Shown here piece by piece: positions 391-10,774 of a stretch of 11,506 nucleotides of DNA; the first letter of the stretch is position 1, and every line of letters begins with the position of its first letter. The notes below the pieces were generated by a model. It was not told the DNA's origin. It saw only the letters and a list, made by a program, of their open reading frames with translations, and ran no database searches. The stretch lies in assembly GCA_003162495.1 (NCBI GenBank), contig PMOF01000029.1:18634-30139 (forward strand), given 5' to 3'. The position numbers and the translations under genes are program-made. Origin of the DNA: Acidobacteriaceae bacterium. GTDB taxonomy: Bacteria > Acidobacteriota > Terriglobia > Terriglobales > Acidobacteriaceae.

Positions 391-3030
391 TCATTGCCCG
401 CCGGCAGGCATCGAGCGAATGTACGCAACCAGCCCCTGCATGTCCTTGGCATTCATGTTGGTCAGGGGCATGCCGCCCTGCTGCATCCGGATGCTGTGGT
501 GGCGAAGCAGGTCTTCCAGGACCGAAGCCGGAAGGATCGACGCCGTGCCGGCAAGTCCCGGAGCGGCTACGGTTCCGTGCAAGCCGGCCACGCCATGGCA
601 GGTTTCGCAGCGGTTGCTCTGGAATACGAGCTGGCCGCGCATCGCCACAGCGCTGAGCACAACAGGCGCGGTTGCTTGCGCGGGCGTCTGAGGTTTTGCT
701 CCAGTGGCAACGGAAGCCGGTTGAGCCCCCGCCGCGCCGACAGCGGGAGTTCCCTGGGCATTGGGTGCGCTGGCCGGCGCAGTCGATAGGGTGTTGAGAT
801 AGGCAACCAGTTGCACCATCTGTGCGTCGTTCACCTTCACCGAAGGCATGCCCCCGTTCCGCATCTTGGCGGTGGGGTGGTGCAGCAACGTGGGCAGCGC
901 GTCGCCAGGAAACTTCTTTCCGACGCCGATCAGAGAGGGAGCGAAGTGGGTTCCCTCGGCTGTGGGGCCGTGGCAGGCGGAGCAGCCCTGCGAGACGAAT
1001 AGCTCGCGGCCAGGCGTCGGCTTTGTGCTGGCCGCAGCAGTCGTGTTCGCCGCCGCATTCGCCGGCGGCGGCGCAGCAGCCGGAGCGGCAGCATTCGGTG
1101 CAGCTGTTGGCTCGGGCGAGGGCGTCGCGTAGGTTTCAGTCGTCTCGGGGGTCGTCTGCTTGCCCGCTGGCGGAGCCGTAAGCGTCCGCAGATAGGCAAC
1201 GATCGAACCAAGTTCTTCCGGCGTCCCCGCGACCGGCGGCATGGCGCCGGCTTTCATCTTGGCGTTGGGGTTTTGCAGCAGCTGCGTGATCTGTGCATCG
1301 GAAACATTTTTGATCAGCGGAGCCAGCGCCGGCGCTTTCCCTCCTACGCCGGCCGGTCCGTGACACGCGAAGCATCCGCGCTCCTGGAACATTTGTTGGC
1401 CTGCCGCCGCGGGGGCTGAAAGCTTCGCCGCCGCGCCGCCTTCTGCAGCGGTTGGCGATCTACTCTTGCCGGTTGGGTTGGAAGCGCCTTCGTCGGTTTC
1501 CGAAGGAGGCTGCGCAGAGATGCCCGTCATAGCCGGAACATTTGCGGCGCTGGTGCCGAGCACGCCCAGATAAGCAAGTAAATGCGACATGTCGTTCGCG
1601 GAAATGTCCACCGCTGGCATGTGTCCCGCGCGCATTTTGGCATTCGGGTTGTGCAACAACGCGATCAATTGCGGCTCGGGGAACTTGGTTGTTACGCCGA
1701 CGAGACTGGGGGCTGCCGTTGTTCCCGTTCCAGTTGCGCCGTGGCAGCCGGCGCATCCGTGCGCCTCAAAGATGCCCTTGCCCTGCGCCACCAGCGGATT
1801 GACCGGCCCGGTGGGAAGCGCCATCGGGCCGGTTCCCCCAGGGGACTCGACATATGGTTCGAACGGTGCGGCGGTGTATGCCTTTTCCTGATGATCCTGG
1901 GTGGAGAGCTGTGCCGCCACGCTGGGGTCATGCCGGTCGTCCCATTCGCTTTTTTCTCCCAGGTAGATAATTCCAAGCATGACGAAAGCTACGGCCAGCA
2001 CGGGAATGGGCCTGCGCCATGGCCTGCGCTCCAGCTTGCGATCCAGAAACGGCATGAGGAAAAACAGCGTGGCCAGCAAGCCGGGAATGACGACGACGGC
2101 GAAAACCACCTTCGGCCCTTCCCAGTACTTGAGCCACTCGAACATGGGCAGGTAATACCACTCCGGGCGGGGCAGAAACTGCGTGTCTGCGGGGTTGGCA
2201 ATGGGGCCAAGGCTTGCGGGATGGAAGTAGGAAAGAAAGCCCAGGCCAACCATGATGAGCAGCGCCATGCCCATATCCATCAACACCTGACGCGGATAAA
2301 AGTTTTCCGGCGCAAGCTTCGGCTCGACAGGGTCTTCGTGAATAGGGCCGGCCGCACCGGCCTTGCGGAACAGGAAGATGTGCGCAGCTATAAATGCGAA
2401 GATGGCGCCTGGAATCAAGAAAACGTGCGCAACATAAAAACGCGATAACGTGAGCGTGCCGATGGTGTCGCCGCCGCGCAGCAAACGAGTCAGCCAGTTA
2501 CCGATGAGTGGGATCTGGCCGACGATATTTGTGCCCACCGCGGTGGCAAAATACGCCTTCTGGTCCCAGGGCAGCAAATAGCCGGTGAAGCCCATGCCCA
2601 GCACCAGCAAGGAGAGCACCGCCCCGGACATCCACAACAATTCGCGCCGTCCCTTGAATGATCCATACAGAAACGTCTGTAGAAAATGCAGCGCCAGCAC
2701 AATAATCATTGCGCTGGATCCGTAGTAATGCAGGCTGCGCAGAAACGCGCCCGCGGCAACCTGTTTGGTGATATAGGCTACGCTGGTGTGCGCCGTCTCG
2801 GCGGAGGGAACATAATAGAGCGCAAGACAAATACCGGTGATGATCTGCGAGATGAAGATGAAGAGCAGGCCGGAGCCGAACACATAGGCCAGTCGCGCGC
2901 CGCCTGGAATCGGCTCGTCGAGAGACTCCTTCATCAGCTTGTCTACGCCGGCGCGCCGATCCAGCCAGCGAAACAGCCGCTTCGGAAGGCTTCCGGCTCC
3001 GGCAGCGCCCACTTTCTCCTTTTCGTCCAC
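391..3030 (-). CDS. Cytochrome b (b6/subunit IV-like) fused to four haem c domains
   Basis: Inner-membrane quinol-oxidising core of a Rieske/cytochrome b complex, 879 residues. Residues about 44-358 hold seven predicted membrane helices in the 4+3 pattern of cytochrome b6 plus subunit IV. Haem b ligands are H101/H115 (13 residues between) and H202/H217 (14 between, the b6-type spacing). The Qo-site PEWY motif is at 289-292. With a cytoplasmic N-terminus, seven helices place the remainder in the periplasm. That part has four similar domains of about 75 residues with CxxCH at 426-430, 553-557, 683-687 and 808-812. Each has a later G-x-MP segment supplying a likely axial Met (M471, M597, M728, M854). 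Ala/Pro/Thr-rich linkers separate the domains. The start is GTG, preceded by AAGAAGGG at proper spacing and 20 bp after the Rieske stop. No separate cytochrome c1 gene is visible, so the fused domains probably replace it. Cyt b identity is certain; the physiological partner is not. Confidence 0.95.
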   Translation of the reverse strand: MDEKEKVGAAGAGSLPKRLFRWLDRRAGVDKLMKESLDEPIPGGARLAYVFGSGLLFIFISQIITGICLALYYVPSAETAHTSVAYITKQVAAGAFLRSLHYYGSSAMIIVLALHFLQTFLYGSFKGRRELLWMSGAVLSLLVLGMGFTGYLLPWDQKAYFATAVGTNIVGQIPLIGNWLTRLLRGGDTIGTLTLSRFYVAHVFLIPGAIFAFIAAHIFLFRKAGAAGPIHEDPVEPKLAPENFYPRQVLMDMGMALLIMVGLGFLSYFHPASLGPIANPADTQFLPRPEWYYLPMFEWLKYWEGPKVVFAVVVIPGLLATLFFLMPFLDRKLERRPWRRPIPVLAVAFVMLGIIYLGEKSEWDDRHDPSVAAQLSTQDHQEKAYTAAPFEPYVESPGGTGPMALPTGPVNPLVAQGKGIFEAHGCAGCHGATGTGTTAAPSLVGVTTKFPEPQLIALLHNPNAKMRAGHMPAVDISANDMSHLLAYLGVLGTSAANVPAMTGISAQPPSETDEGASNPTGKSRSPTAAEGGAAAKLSAPAAAGQQMFQERGCFACHGPAGVGGKAPALAPLIKNVSDAQITQLLQNPNAKMKAGAMPPVAGTPEELGSIVAYLRTLTAPPAGKQTTPETTETYATPSPEPTAAPNAAAPAAAPPPANAAANTTAAASTKPTPGRELFVSQGCSACHGPTAEGTHFAPSLIGVGKKFPGDALPTLLHHPTAKMRNGGMPSVKVNDAQMVQLVAYLNTLSTAPASAPNAQGTPAVGAAGAQPASVATGAKPQTPAQATAPVVLSAVAMRGQLVFQSNRCETCHGVAGLHGTVAAPGLAGTASILPASVLEDLLRHHSIRMQQGGMPLTNMNAKDMQGLVAYIRSMPAGGQ

Positions 3031-3050
3031 GGATTCACCCTTCTTCGCGA

Positions 3051-3608
3051 TCAGCTGATCTTTTCCTGGTTCGGTACGTTGGAACGAAAATACTCAAAGT
3101 GGACTTGCAGCTTACCTTCTTTGAGCTGGGCGGGTAACCGATCCATCGCACGCGGGGGCGGCCCGAAGATGTGCTGTCCATCCGACTTGAATTCGCCGCC
3201 ATGGCATGGGCACACGAATTTGTTATTGCCGGCCTGCCAGGAGACGCTGCAACCCAGGTGGGGACAAATCGCCGAAAGAACCGCGAGCTGGCCGCTTTCG
3301 TCGCGGCTCACGTAGACCGATTGGGATGACACGACCTCTCGCCATCCGTCGCGCTGGGTGAATGTGATGGTTTTGCGCACCGGCTCTTTGCTGTCGGCAA
3401 ATTCGCTTTCCTTGCCGACGTCTGACCACTCGGTTCCCGCCGCTTTCGCATACAGGGGATAAAGCACATAGCGCAGAACAGGCACCGCGAGCACGGCTCC
3501 CATTCCGGCTGAACCGATGGCCATCAGGGCTCCGAAGAAAGATCTCCGATTGACGACCAGGACGTTTTGATTCCCGCCGGCTTCGCGGATTTTGTTTTCC
3601 TGCTCCAC
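3051..3608 (-). CDS. Rieske [2Fe-2S] protein of the bc-type complex
   Basis: Iron-sulfur subunit that takes the first electron from quinol at the Qo site and passes it to haem c; 185 residues from the chosen start. The cluster motifs are intact. CPHLGC (C115, H117, C120) and CPCHG (C133, C135, H136) give two Cys and two His ligands plus the disulfide pair. A Pro-rich GPPPR loop follows, as in Rieske proteins of quinol oxidases. The N-terminus has a twin-arginine NRRSFF motif (Arg 21-22) just before a single hydrophobic helix, fitting Tat export with a retained anchor. I chose GTG at 3608 because AGGAG lies 5 nt upstream; the frame is also open to a GTG at 3632, which would overlap the preceding gene and has no better ribosome-binding site. 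The gene follows the Cyc2-like stop by 8 nt and precedes the cytochrome b gene by 20 nt, so all three are very likely co-transcribed. Confidence 0.93.
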   Translation of the reverse strand: MEQENKIREAGGNQNVLVVNRRSFFGALMAIGSAGMGAVLAVPVLRYVLYPLYAKAAGTEWSDVGKESEFADSKEPVRKTITFTQRDGWREVVSSQSVYVSRDESGQLAVLSAICPHLGCSVSWQAGNNKFVCPCHGGEFKSDGQHIFGPPPRAMDRLPAQLKEGKLQVHFEYFRSNVPNQEKIS

Positions 3609-3613
3609 GCGAT

Positions 3614-3618
3614 CTCCT
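3614..3618 (-). promoter_or_regulatory. Shine-Dalgarno AGGAG overlapping the upstream stop codon
   Basis: Read on the minus strand, the TAG stop of the Cyc2-like gene (3619-3617) runs into TAGGAGATCGC followed by GTG. The AGGAG is 5 nt from the GTG at 3608. It decides the Rieske start and suggests that translation of the two genes is coupled. Confidence 0.6.
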
Positions 3619-4936
3619 AGAAATTCAGCCACAACGCCGCATACACGGTGTTGTTGTCGGATGCATTGCGGTTGGCGCCGTCGTAGTTGGTGGTCGCGCC
3701 GTTGAACTTGAAGTATCCGGTGTAGTTCAAACTTAGGTCGATATTCTGCACCGGCCAGTACGCAAACTGCGTGGTAAAGCCGCTGGTGTCGGGGCTGCCG
3801 TTGTTGCTGCCCGTAAGCGGCCCGGGCGCGTACAGCAAGGGGTCGTTGTTCCCCGTGGTCGCGAAAATGGCTCCCGTCGCGGTGTATTTGTTGGTCCAGT
3901 GATAGGTGCTGTCCAGCTTGAATGCATTCAGGTGGTTCGCCGCCGTGCTGGCGCCACCCGCGCCAAACGTCGCGCCCAGATTCGTTTTCTCATACGTGTA
4001 GGTTCCGTGCACGTCCAGCAGGTTGGGTCCGAAGGGCCGCTCATACTGAAAGTCGAACGAGGGGTCTGCGTATCGATCCTCCGGGCCGGTGATCGCGCCA
4101 GGGAAGGAGCTCATGTAGATGCCGTAGGTGCCGATTTCCAGATAATTGCCGCCCCAGTTTTGTTGCCACGCTGCCCGCCAATAGGGTGCAACCCCGCTGA
4201 TGTTGAAGGTCGAGCCTGTTCCGGTCACTGGAGTGGACGCGCCGGCGTGCTCTGAACGATAAATAGACACGTTCGTGTACAGGTGGTTGTTCCACATGCT
4301 ATAGGCGCCAATTCCGGCCACATCCTGGCCCAGCGCGCCGTCGATGAGCGGAGAAGCGATCGAGCCGACGCCCGATGCCGTCGAGATCCACGGAAAACCC
4401 CAGGCCGGCGTGCTGTTCCATACGTCTTCAACCGTTGGATTGTTGTTCAAGGTAATGCCATACTCCCAATCCTTGCCGCCCAGCTTCCCCTGGTCGGCGT
4501 AGCGCAGGTCGGTGTTGTCCATGCCGAAGTGGTCGTCCGCATGGGTGTAAGTCAATTGCGCCAAACCGCCAAAGTGGGAAGCATACCCTCCAGCCAGAAA
4601 CAGGCTCAATTGCTGCGGGAAACCCGCCGCATTGTTCTGTGTGCCCGGCTGGTTGGCCTGGAAGGAAGTGTTTGACAACAACACCATCACCGACAGCGGG
4701 ATGTATCTGGACAGCAGCAGATCTTTGGTGTTGCCTACCTTATCAGTGGCAGTCATGTCAGTGAGCACATAGCCCTTCAGCTTGAAGTTGCGTCCGAAAG
4801 CTGTCAGCTCCGGTGGATTGCTATGGCACACATTGCAGGAGAGCCCGGTCTGCCGCGCAAAACTCGGAACCGCATTAGCGGGCCGCAGACTGAGAATAAG
4901 AAACACGGCCGCAGCCATGCGCACGATCAATTTCAT
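3617..4936 (-). CDS. Cyc2-like outer-membrane monohaem cytochrome-porin
   Basis: 439 residues. An N-terminal signal peptide (1-22, cleavage likely after ANA) is followed at once by VPSFARQTG and a single haem c site CNVCH (34-38). ELTAFGRNFKLKGY follows at about 44-57. The rest, about 365 residues, is rich in aromatic residues, Gly, Asn and Thr with alternating patterns. It ends in LWLNF, a C-terminal Phe typical of barrels inserted by the BAM machinery. This design, one haem c plugged into the N-terminus of a porin-sized barrel, matches the Cyc2 family known from Fe(II)-oxidising bacteria, and the PSFARQTG...C..CH...FGR.FK motif is as I recall it for that family. Related fused cytochrome-porins exist without a proven iron role, so the substrate is unknown. 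ATG 4936 is well supported by GAGGA 6 nt upstream. First gene of the Rieske/cytochrome b operon. Confidence 0.8.
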   Translation of the reverse strand: MKLIVRMAAAVFLILSLRPANAVPSFARQTGLSCNVCHSNPPELTAFGRNFKLKGYVLTDMTATDKVGNTKDLLLSRYIPLSVMVLLSNTSFQANQPGTQNNAAGFPQQLSLFLAGGYASHFGGLAQLTYTHADDHFGMDNTDLRYADQGKLGGKDWEYGITLNNNPTVEDVWNSTPAWGFPWISTASGVGSIASPLIDGALGQDVAGIGAYSMWNNHLYTNVSIYRSEHAGASTPVTGTGSTFNISGVAPYWRAAWQQNWGGNYLEIGTYGIYMSSFPGAITGPEDRYADPSFDFQYERPFGPNLLDVHGTYTYEKTNLGATFGAGGASTAANHLNAFKLDSTYHWTNKYTATGAIFATTGNNDPLLYAPGPLTGSNNGSPDTSGFTTQFAYWPVQNIDLSLNYTGYFKFNGATTNYDGANRNASDNNTVYAALWLNF

Positions 4937-5319
4937 TGCCTGTCCTCAAGCCTTCCTGTGATCGGCTCGTTGCCGCGCTTCCATTCAACCGTTGACTCAA
5001 CCGGAGAGCATGCACACCGAGCCGCAAACTATTGTGCGCAAGGGCAGCCGAAGGAGGATTGGCCCGGAAGCGCATTGATCGAGCGCCAGATGCGACTCTT
5101 TCTCCCGCCGCAATGGGGAAGGAGCGTCGCATGAAATTTGCCAGTGTGCAAGTTAAGCATTGAGGGCGCCAGAGCGTTGTGGCATTCCTCAGTGATTGAA
5201 ACAGCGATGTTTAGGAAAGGCTGTGCTGTTTTGCTCAGGTGGGCTGGTGCATTAGTTAAGTCAGAGCAACGCGCGGCCCTCCGCCCCAACGCGAGCCGGG
5301 AGTTGCTTGCAGTCGCAAG
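4937..5319. other. 383-bp gene-free leader region upstream of the Cyc2-like operon
   Basis: The gap separates the end of ribF from the start of the Cyc2-like gene. It should hold the promoter for the electron-transfer operon and the end of the upstream transcript. A ribosome-binding site (GAGGA, 4943-4947 on the minus strand) lies next to the start. I found no near-consensus -35/-10 pair on the minus strand, no convincing terminator hairpin with a T-run behind ribF, no riboswitch and no RNA gene. Short open frames cross the region, but none has a ribosome-binding site or recognisable protein features. A direct repeat at 4985-5003 is described separately. Confidence 0.5.
4985..5003. repeat. 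Direct repeat TCAACCG, two copies 12 bp apart
   Basis: TCAACCG occurs at 4985-4991 and again at 4997-5003, a centre spacing of 12 bp, close to one helical turn. The spacer also creates TTGACTCAA (4992-5000), a small dyad. The repeat lies about 50-70 bp upstream of the Cyc2-like ATG. Paired direct repeats at about one turn are a common layout for response-regulator sites, so it could be an operator. With only two short copies it could also be chance. Confidence 0.3.
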
Positions 5320-8993: not shown

Positions 8994-9052
8994 GCCTTGG
9001 GATTGAGATGCGGAATGATCGGCCCCAAAGCCGCTCGCCGCCGGGAGAACCG

Positions 9053-10774
9053 ATGAGAGAGCAGCAAGCGATGGTGAGAACAAGCTGGCAGACATTTGCC
9101 CTCCTGGCAGCGCTCGCCGTCGCTGCGGCAGCGCCGTCCGCGGCAAGCGCAGCCGCGCAACAGCCGTCGCCCGCAGCCACCCCTCAAGCCCAATCTCCAA
9201 CCCAGTCCCCCGACAAGGAAAAGCCTGCCACCCACATCACCCCCGAGCAGGCCAAAGAGCTGTTCGCCATGGTCGATGTATTGCTCAAGTTTTCTTCCGA
9301 TGAAACCGGCCTGCCAATCGAGACCACAGTCAAGCGGCGGATGACCACCCGCGCCGCCGTCGAGAGCTACATGAAAGAGAAATTCGACGAAGACGAAAGC
9401 GCCAAACGCCTCCAGCATGGCGAAATCGTCCTTAAGAAATTCGGCCTTCTCGATCACGACTTCGCGCTCAAGCCCTTTCTGCTCGCTATGCTCACTGAAC
9501 AGATCGAAGCCTATTACGACTCCAAAACCAAGACCGTCAACATGCTGGACTGGGTGGACATCGAAGATCAGAAGCCGGTGCTGGCCCATGAACTCACCCA
9601 CGCCCTCCAGGACCAGCACTCCGATCTGGAAAAGTGGAACGACCAGACCCCGGACGATGTCTCCCTCAACGCCGCCGCCGACTCTGACCACATCGCCAAG
9701 GACGAGCTTGACACCGCCCGCGACGCCGTCGCCGAGGGTCAGGCCACAGCCGTCATGATGGACTACATCCTCAAGCCCATGGGCAAAAGCCTGGTCAAAG
9801 ATCCGGAAGTCATGGATTTCGTCAAGCAGCAGATGTCCGCTTCTGATAGCTCCCCGGTTCTCGCCCGCGCCCCCATTCTGCTCAGTGAGTCGCTCCTTTT
9901 TCCCTATCGCGAGGGACTCAGCTTTGAACAGGACGTGTGGATGGGCCAGGGTCAGGCTGCCGCCTTTGCCGGAGCGCTCGACCGCCCGCCTACCTCAACC
10001 TGGGAGATCATCAATCCTCTTGAATACGAGAAAAAGCACGTCCCACCCGTGCCTATCCTGCCCGATATTCATCCCCTCGTCGACAAGCTTTACAAGCCCT
10101 ACGACATCGGCCAGGTCGGCCAGCTTGATCTGCACATTCTCGCTGAAATCTTCGCCGGTGACGCCGCGGCCCGCGATCTTACACCGGCCTGGGATGGAGG
10201 CATTTATTGGGCCGGACAGCGCCTCAGCGCCAAAACTCCCGAAGCACAGGCCAGCACCAAATCCCTTGCCCTCTTCTATCTTTCCGCCTGGAAGAATGCC
10301 GCCTCGGCGCAGGCCTTCGCCAAGCTCTATGCCGACGATCTGGGCCGCAAATACTCCGGCCTCAAGCCCGGGGTCCCCGGCGACGGGTCTTCGTCGCTGG
10401 GGCAGAAGCCCGACCTCGACGCCCAGCGCACCATCGCCGCCGATCTTCCCCCTGGAACCACTGAGCAGGTCTTCTCCACCAACGAAGGGCCGGTCCTGAT
10501 CACCACCCGGGGTAAATTCGTCTTCACCGCCGAAAGCTTTGACCTCGATCTGGCCCGCAAACTCACCACCCTCATCCTCGACGCCCAGGACACCGGCGAT
10601 CTCCGCATCGCCGAAGCAACCAATCCGGGCACCCCGTCCTTGCGGCTTCTTTCCGGCGCGGGGGAAGGAGAGTCCGAATCCGGCCAGCCGCTCACCGCTG
10701 ACCTCGTCCGGTTCCTCTCCAACTGTGGCGTGATGAAATTCGCCGTGACCGCCGCGAGGAGAGTTGGGAAATAA
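9053..10774 (+). CDS. Secreted HEXXH zinc metallopeptidase-like protein, function unknown
   Basis: 573 residues from the chosen ATG at 9053, which has GGGAGA about 4 nt upstream. ATG 9071 gives a shorter signal peptide, and ATG 9008 adds 15 residues with no clear ribosome-binding site. A Sec-type signal (hydrophobic ALLAALAVAAAAP) ends near an Ala-rich SAASAAA stretch; there is no lipobox Cys. After a Pro/Gln linker, the motif AHELTHALQDQHSDLEKW contains HELTH (179-183) and a possible third zinc ligand E228 in VAEGQA, a gluzincin-like arrangement. Downstream blocks LLFPYREGLSFEQDVW and RPPTSTWEIINPLEYEKKH resemble conserved segments I recall in uncharacterised HEXXH proteins of other phyla. 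The residues for zinc binding are intact, but the substrate is unknown. It is transcribed alone, divergent from ygfZ. Confidence 0.8.
   Translation: MREQQAMVRTSWQTFALLAALAVAAAAPSAASAAAQQPSPAATPQAQSPTQSPDKEKPATHITPEQAKELFAMVDVLLKFSSDETGLPIETTVKRRMTTRAAVESYMKEKFDEDESAKRLQHGEIVLKKFGLLDHDFALKPFLLAMLTEQIEAYYDSKTKTVNMLDWVDIEDQKPVLAHELTHALQDQHSDLEKWNDQTPDDVSLNAAADSDHIAKDELDTARDAVAEGQATAVMMDYILKPMGKSLVKDPEVMDFVKQQMSASDSSPVLARAPILLSESLLFPYREGLSFEQDVWMGQGQAAAFAGALDRPPTSTWEIINPLEYEKKHVPPVPILPDIHPLVDKLYKPYDIGQVGQLDLHILAEIFAGDAAARDLTPAWDGGIYWAGQRLSAKTPEAQASTKSLALFYLSAWKNAASAQAFAKLYADDLGRKYSGLKPGVPGDGSSSLGQKPDLDAQRTIAADLPPGTTEQVFSTNEGPVLITTRGKFVFTAESFDLDLARKLTTLILDAQDTGDLRIAEATNPGTPSLRLLSGAGEGESESGQPLTADLVRFLSNCGVMKFAVTAARRVGK

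Follow-up and report, generated by a model that had tools for sequence, protein, structure and literature searches.

A Cyc2-like surface cytochrome gene leading a Rieske/cytochrome b operon in Acidobacteriota: a candidate link between the quinone pool and the cell surface

Cyc2 proteins join one N-terminal c-type haem, flanked by the motifs AXPXFAR[QK][TY] and PXL, to a porin barrel, as in Acidithiobacillus ferrooxidans, Mariprofundus PV-1, and Leptospirillum Cyt572. In the definition of Keffer et al. (2021; PMC8406198), a Cyc2 protein has a single CXXCH with AXPXFAR[Q/K][T/Y] upstream and PXL downstream, at least 365 residues, and a porin; the upstream motif is called unique to Cyc2, and the barrel of the PV-1 protein is predicted to have 16 strands (PMC8406198). 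As far as PMC10654088 and PMC10715153 describe them, known cyc2 genes stand alone, beside the gene of a mono- or dihaem cytochrome, or in a rus/cox operon, and cyc2 of A. ferrooxidans leads the rus operon with its oxidase (PMC10654088). The arrangement differs in an 11,506-nucleotide stretch of an Acidobacteriaceae bacterium (assembly GCA_003162495.1, contig PMOF01000029.1, positions 18,634 to 30,139; hereafter the window). Here, a cyc2-like gene leads a minus-strand operon (4936-391), delimited from open reading frames and Pfam matches, that continues with genes for a Rieske protein and a cytochrome b carrying four c-type haem domains. With modest confidence, we read the three genes as one dedicated trans-envelope electron-transfer module that runs between the menaquinone pool and a Cyc2-like surface cytochrome, most likely in the outward direction.

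Other described systems share parts of this design. According to PMC8790237, the petI and petII bc1 complexes of A. ferrooxidans probably connect Cyc2 with the quinone pool, whichever way the electrons run, but their genes lie in pet operons apart from rus and soluble carriers are used, whereas the window operon fuses four c-type haems to cytochrome b and co-encodes the outer-membrane cytochrome. The window also holds no cyc1, rusticyanin, or aa3 oxidase gene of the rus/cox type. Anammox bacteria have several Rieske/cytochrome b complexes per genome with a multihaem c part (Kustd1480-1485, Kuste4569-4574), a likeness to the genomes considered here, and these complexes carry an NAD(P) oxidoreductase together with a hexa- or octahaem cytochrome (PMC12954380). 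In contrast, the window operon lacks both an oxidoreductase that could form an NAD(P) module and a gene for a separate subunit IV. MtrCAB, MtoAB, and PioAB are likewise outer-membrane conduits coupled to an inner-membrane quinone enzyme (general knowledge and, in part, PMC10654088), but they combine a haem-free porin with a separate decahaem protein, while the window system has one haem fused to the barrel. Neither a Cyc2-bc operon in Acidobacteria nor an Fe(III)-reduction mechanism for acidophilic Acidobacteria was found in the literature searched, a search beyond whose reach most subscription journals lay.

The Three Encoded Proteins

A preliminary description of the window, drawn from the letters alone, had placed three genes with gaps of 8 and 20 nucleotides at 391..4936, and the reading frames are as it claimed: 8 nucleotides (3616-3609) separate the barrel gene from the Rieske gene, and 20 (3050-3031) lie between the Rieske and cytochrome b genes. 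The first gene (3617..4936, minus strand) encodes a Cyc2-like fused cytochrome-porin of 439 residues with one c-haem motif and a predicted barrel. Its layout comprises an N-terminal hydrophobic segment (residues 3-21), AVPSFARQTGLSCNVCHSNPPEL, a barrel of 16 long strands as predicted, and a C-terminal Phe. The haem motif CNVCH (residues 34-38; 4823..4837, minus strand) is preceded by AVPSFARQT and followed by PEL, an order that fits the Cyc2 signature AXPXFAR[Q/K][T/Y]...CXXCH...PXL. This single N-terminal CXXCH comes after the hydrophobic segment, which is taken as a signal peptide from its hydrophobicity, and the protein exceeds the 365-residue minimum and has the porin barrel in both its AlphaFold2 model and its Foldseek matches. 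C34, C37, and H38 are invariant in ten aligned rows.

A scan of GTDB genomes with the window family found 557 relatives, of which the best 80 loci, all from Acidobacteriota, were used. Exactly one CxxCH is present in each of the 81 barrels formed by these 80 and the window's own. The strict Cyc2 motif occurs in 53 of the 81; accepting Y or W in place of F raises this to 64. Of the 28 barrels without the strict motif, 27 fall outside the clade of the window protein. Sequence searches of Pfam, NCBIfam, and the PDB gave no match to the barrel protein. The AlphaFold2 model predicts a porin of 16 long strands (the strand listing gives 17, one of four residues) that follows a short helical domain in which the only CxxCH lies. 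The best of five models has a mean predicted local distance difference test (pLDDT) score of 81.7 and the other four range from 67.6 to 79.4; the model is weak in the haem domain, with block means of 49-67 over residues 11-80. Foldseek returned 256 PDB matches to the model at E up to 0.001, which are general porins with a best E of 3e-8 and moderate TM-scores of about 0.4-0.5. By signature motif, length, and predicted fold, the protein can be placed as Cyc2-like, and the conserved single CxxCH together with the Cyc2 motif of the window protein bears out its earlier description as a monohaem cytochrome-porin rather than a haem-less barrel.

The Rieske [2Fe-2S] protein (3051..3608, minus strand) starts at a GTG at 3608, within a longer frame that opens at 3632. 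RRSFF stands near its start, a motif which we take to be twin-arginine-like, and a hydrophobic segment (35-57) would serve as the membrane anchor. The cluster ligands CPHLGC...CPCHGGEF follow the pattern CxHxGC...CxCHG, and Pfam Rieske matches at E 6e-14. A low-potential Rieske was considered, given Gly and Phe at the positions where high-potential proteins have Ser and Tyr, but was not relied on because an anammox Rieske protein with Phe still measures +335 mV (PMC12954380) and many relatives keep Ser.

The third gene (3030-391, minus strand; 879 residues) matches Pfam Cytochrome_B (E 2e-49) and Cytochrom_B_C, along with four Cytochrom_C stretches. Its cytochrome b part (1951..3030, minus strand) has about seven hydrophobic segments, the His pairs H101/H115 and H202/H217, and PEWY at 289; two such His pairs and PEWY are the motifs of cytochrome b and of its quinol site. 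The C-terminal extension (391..1950, minus strand) contributes four cytochrome c domains, with CxxCH at residues 426, 553, 683, and 808 and Met residues approximately 40-46 positions after each. These four fused domains stand in place of a canonical cytochrome c1 or f subunit. Thus, the Pfam matches and the four CxxCH motifs uphold the initial assignment of the second and third genes as a Rieske protein and a cytochrome b with four haem c domains.

Conservation of the Gene Order and Its Partners

Among the best 80 loci, 49 encode a barrel at least 57% identical to that of the window. Three of these end at a contig edge at or just past the barrel (L068, L097, and L105), leaving 46 in which the gene order is testable. 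Rieske and cytochrome b genes adjoin the barrel gene in all 46, downstream in 45 and upstream in L104. Since every testable relative keeps the order, it is more than chance and is not unique to the strain. One of the loci belongs to an isolate, Acidipila rosea DSM 103428, which carries the operon. Other flanking genes recur in at most eight loci upstream (41 loci with at least 3 kb) and at most five downstream (31 loci). No gene that neighbours the operon in the window was found in the flanks of the 49 related loci. Because the bc pair is kept while other neighbours change, the three genes can be regarded as a conserved unit.

Uncut cytochrome b frames of the related loci contain four haem motifs, apart from those of L101-L104 and L132, which have five, and that of L072, which has three and stops 285 nucleotides short of the contig end. 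The c-haem tail of Cyc2-linked cytochrome b varies between one, four, and five haems (L101-L104 and L132; L106, L109, L110, and L126). In a tree of the barrels, the 49 loci group with the window in a single clade (50 rows), supported at 99 by the Shimodaira-Hasegawa-like approximate likelihood ratio test (SH-aLRT), and sister clades adjoin other genes. This tree also joins long plasmid branches that were flagged as unsafe, and only its clade structure within Acidobacteriota is used. Over 47 operons, barrel distances correlate with Rieske and cytochrome b distances at r 0.74 each, compared with permutation maxima of 0.26 and 0.38.

Within a sample of 398 genomes of the family, 108 have a barrel match at E up to 1e-40, and the trait is patchy even within the window's genus. 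Some genome bins hold more than one copy: LL4.bin32 has two different window-type barrels (L068 and L087), while BP9.bin131 (L060 and L119) and JA1.bin47 (L062 and L122) combine the window type with a larger type described below.

Of 297 genomes sampled across the phylum, 73 contain a Cyc2-like barrel match. Surroundings were taken for 86 barrel places besides the window's, in 72 genomes, with a flank of mostly about 8 kb and with places on short contigs counted as misses. Both a Rieske and a cytochrome b gene lie in the flank in 27 of the 86, on the strand of the barrel gene in each. Of these 27 places, 24 have a GltD-like NAD(P) oxidoreductase and a nearby frame with 6-8 haems, two are of the window type, and one (L051) also has a molybdopterin/NrfD-type complex. 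Seven of the 86 places, two of them among the 27, have genes for a quinone-reactive complex, either molybdopterin-like or NrfD. By rough estimate rather than a computed control, a bc pair would stand beside a barrel by chance at about 1% or less of places, given genomes of a few megabases with zero to five cytochrome b genes each among the matches listed. The phylum-wide pairing supports the surface-to-quinone wire suggested in the preliminary description.

Beyond the phylum, barrel relatives are known from nine plasmid records, with identities of 29-40% over 92% or more of the query, hosted by Caballeronia, Paraburkholderia, Acidiphilium, Methylocystis, and others. Electron-carrier genes adjoin the barrel in all three of the nine records that were opened. 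The Caballeronia plasmid has an annotated high-potential iron-sulfur protein (HiPIP), the barrel, and a c-type cytochrome side by side; on the Methylocystis plasmid the barrel relative adjoins three c-type cytochromes, and on plasmid pACRY03 of Acidiphilium cryptum JF-5 (L140) it adjoins one. pACRY03 is typed as conjugative, and its host is a known Fe(III) reducer.

Whether the bc complex of the operon is the only one in its host was considered in six genomes, namely five that bear the operon (the window's own, G007, G273, Acidipila rosea, and the Granulicella sp. of L090) and G112, which has the larger cluster only. COX1 genes are present in all six, and a second cytochrome b gene lies approximately 3 kb from COX1 in four of the five operon-bearing genomes. 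In a cytochrome b tree, the Cyc2-linked group (21 rows, SH-aLRT 94) stands apart from oxidase-linked (four rows) and b6-like (nine rows) sequences, the latter of which come from the larger clusters. All three kinds are present in G007, G273, and the genome of L090, while the window's own incomplete assembly (Acidobacteriota; 2.82 Mb in 330 contigs, 71% complete) shows the Cyc2-linked kind only. Because a different bc complex adjoins the terminal oxidase in four of the five operon-bearing genomes, the one encoded in the window looks dedicated.

Direction of Electron Flow and Competing Explanations

In the proposed module, the Rieske/cytochrome b part would exchange electrons with the menaquinone pool at the inner membrane. 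The four tethered cytochrome c domains, five in some relatives, would extend into the periplasm and make contact with the barrel protein, and the one-haem barrel would move electrons across the outer membrane. In outward use, the bc part would oxidise menaquinol, and Fe(III) or another extracellular acceptor would receive the electrons at acid pH. Outward flow is the better guess given menaquinone use and the presence of RuBisCO in only one of the five operon-bearing genomes (G273; it is also in G112). RuBisCO was not found in the other four, which include Acidipila rosea and the incomplete window assembly. The MqnA/MqnD family (PF02621) of the futalosine menaquinone route is present in all six genomes; since MenB exceeds the cut-off in none of the six and gives sub-threshold matches in five, the menaquinone argument rests on PF02621. 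With menaquinone near -70 mV (PMC12954380) and Fe(III)/Fe(II) at +770 mV at pH 2 (PMC8406198), Fe(III) is a strong acceptor, and electrons moving outward would run downhill, with the possibility of driving a Q-cycle. For the inward direction, the step to menaquinone would be steeply uphill. Reduction of Fe(III) at acid pH is attributed in the review PMC8790237 to heterotrophic Acidobacteria (Acidobacterium capsulatum, Acidicapsa) and to Acidiphilium cryptum JF-5, and Cyc2B with bc1 complex II is reported there in Fe(III)-reducing A. ferrooxidans. In acidithiobacilli, Fe(III) reduction is described as running through isoforms of Cyc2 and Cyc1 (PMC10715153).

Several points weigh against an outward module. 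The characterised Cyc2 proteins (A. ferrooxidans, Cyt572, PV-1) oxidise Fe(II), and function in much of Cyc2 Clusters 2 and 3 is described as unverified by Keffer et al. (PMC8406198). Acidipila rosea, the one isolate found, is listed as an acidophilic aerobe in a table of PMC6435174. Acidobacterium capsulatum and Acidicapsa are not among the best 80 of the 557 loci, an absence that is weak because only these best 80 were seen. The case made from menaquinone is a purely thermodynamic one that loses force as the pH approaches neutrality. The operon itself is patchy, with a barrel of at least 57% identity in 54 of the 398 family genomes, own included. The correlation of the barrel with its partners (0.74) is below that between Rieske and cytochrome b (0.91), and shared descent alone would yield some correlation of distances. 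Lastly, no bc pair was found in the flank at 59 of the 86 phylum places, which means that the partners of many Cyc2-like genes in the phylum are different ones.

The same components could also run inward, which we consider rather unlikely. The barrel would then oxidise outside Fe(II), and electrons would pass via the tethered haems to the bc part and from there uphill to menaquinone, while a downhill branch would feed an oxidase, as is the case in A. ferrooxidans. That characterised Cyc2 proteins are iron oxidases, that COX1 occurs in every genome examined, and that RuBisCO is found in G273 and G112 all fit such a path, as does the Caballeronia plasmid, whose HiPIP, barrel, and c-type cytochrome are the kinds of partner named for acidithiobacilli (PMC10715153). 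However, the uphill step from Fe(II) at pH 2 to menaquinone would amount to approximately 0.84 V (PMC12954380, PMC8406198), the operon has no oxidase, rusticyanin, or Cyc1 gene, and four of the five operon-bearing genomes, one of them incomplete, gave no RuBisCO.

It is less probable still that the substrate is something other than iron, such as humics, Mn, copper, a redox shuttle, or another extracellular compound, or that the system balances redox state in either direction. A role in Mn(II) oxidation has been put forward for Cyc2 of Manganitrophus (PMC9040806), and cupredoxin-like genes lie near many sister-clade barrels, with one such protein matching Pfam Copper-bind; but the Cyc2 signature points first to iron. 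Very improbable, in our view, is a reading in which the barrel works as an ordinary porin, its haem being vestigial or structural, and the bc linkage reflects inherited operon history without electron transfer. Such a porin would agree with the existence of distant Cyc2 homologues of unproven barrel function, with the general porins matched at moderate TM-scores, and with the weakly modelled haem domain. It would leave unaccounted for the CxxCH kept in all 81 barrels, the bc linkage kept amid changing neighbours, and the several different arrangements that join Cyc2-like barrels to quinone-reactive complexes. An outward, menaquinol-linked module remains our preferred account of the operon.

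Larger Clusters, Flanking Genes, and Significance

The larger, NAD(P)-linked clusters are found at L039, L040, L043-L046, L049, L054, L055, L204, L215, L217, L222, L225, L229-L232, L235, L238, L243, L246, L253, and L255. In composition, on which the comparison was made, they resemble the anammox complexes of PMC12954380, with a b6-like cytochrome b, a subunit IV-like protein, an 8-haem c-type cytochrome, and an NAD(P) oxidoreductase. Another arrangement is seen in a closer relative, L108 (11170-16354), where the barrel lies near multihaem c-type cytochrome, a QrcB-like molybdopterin-family protein, and ferredoxin and/or NrfD. Similar molybdopterin/NrfD-type surroundings occur at L051, L052, L206, L211, L220, L234, and L246; L108 and L051 were examined further, while the gene calls at L052, L206, L211, L220, L234, and L246 come from BLAST alone. 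At L039 (59-640), near a sister-clade barrel, is a protein that looks secreted and matches carboxypeptidase-regulatory-like and copper-binding (plastocyanin-like) families of Pfam. Genes like it, found near many barrels of the sister clades, may encode a small copper carrier.

The operon and the larger clusters may be forms of one phylum-wide family of surface-to-quinone modules, each linking the gene of a Cyc2-like outer-membrane cytochrome to those of a dedicated Rieske/cytochrome b complex, a proposal that we regard as speculative and, on present evidence, doubtful. The compact form would be that of the window. With an NAD(P) oxidoreductase and 6-8 haems in addition, the larger form would recall the anammox complexes, for which NAD(P)H production has been proposed. 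Menaquinol oxidation in the larger form would be bifurcated, with one electron passing via Cyc2 to Fe(III) and the other to NAD(P)+. If this is true, Cyc2 would not act only as an iron oxidase but would also carry electrons outward and drive the formation of NAD(P)H. The larger clusters may be of greater interest than the window operon.

Upstream of the operon in the window, a 383-nucleotide intergenic region (4937..5319, minus strand) precedes ribF, on the same strand, and other genes. This region presumably holds the operon promoter, and a promoter scan of it gave no sigma-70-like site. Both gaps within the operon are too short for a terminator, and a terminator scan of them found none, with scan counts no higher than in shuffles either way. 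The downstream neighbour is a convergent gene, of which the end is present; it matches penicillin-binding-protein transpeptidase weakly, below the cut-off. Elsewhere in the window, a plus-strand gene (9008-10774) encodes a 588-residue protein with no Pfam match over the cut-off and an HELTH motif, presumably an HExxH of zinc-protease-like type.

Acidophilic soil and mine-water bacteria carry the three-gene unit, probably as a means of passing electrons to or from iron outside the cell. A Cyc2-like surface cytochrome with its own bc complex, conserved throughout a clade, is a concrete candidate for Fe(III) reduction by Acidobacteria, and the module is testable in the cultured Acidipila rosea DSM 103428, which carries the operon. 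These findings also suggest caution in treating Cyc2 homologues purely as iron-oxidation markers, as those encoded beside a menaquinol-linked bc complex may run outward.

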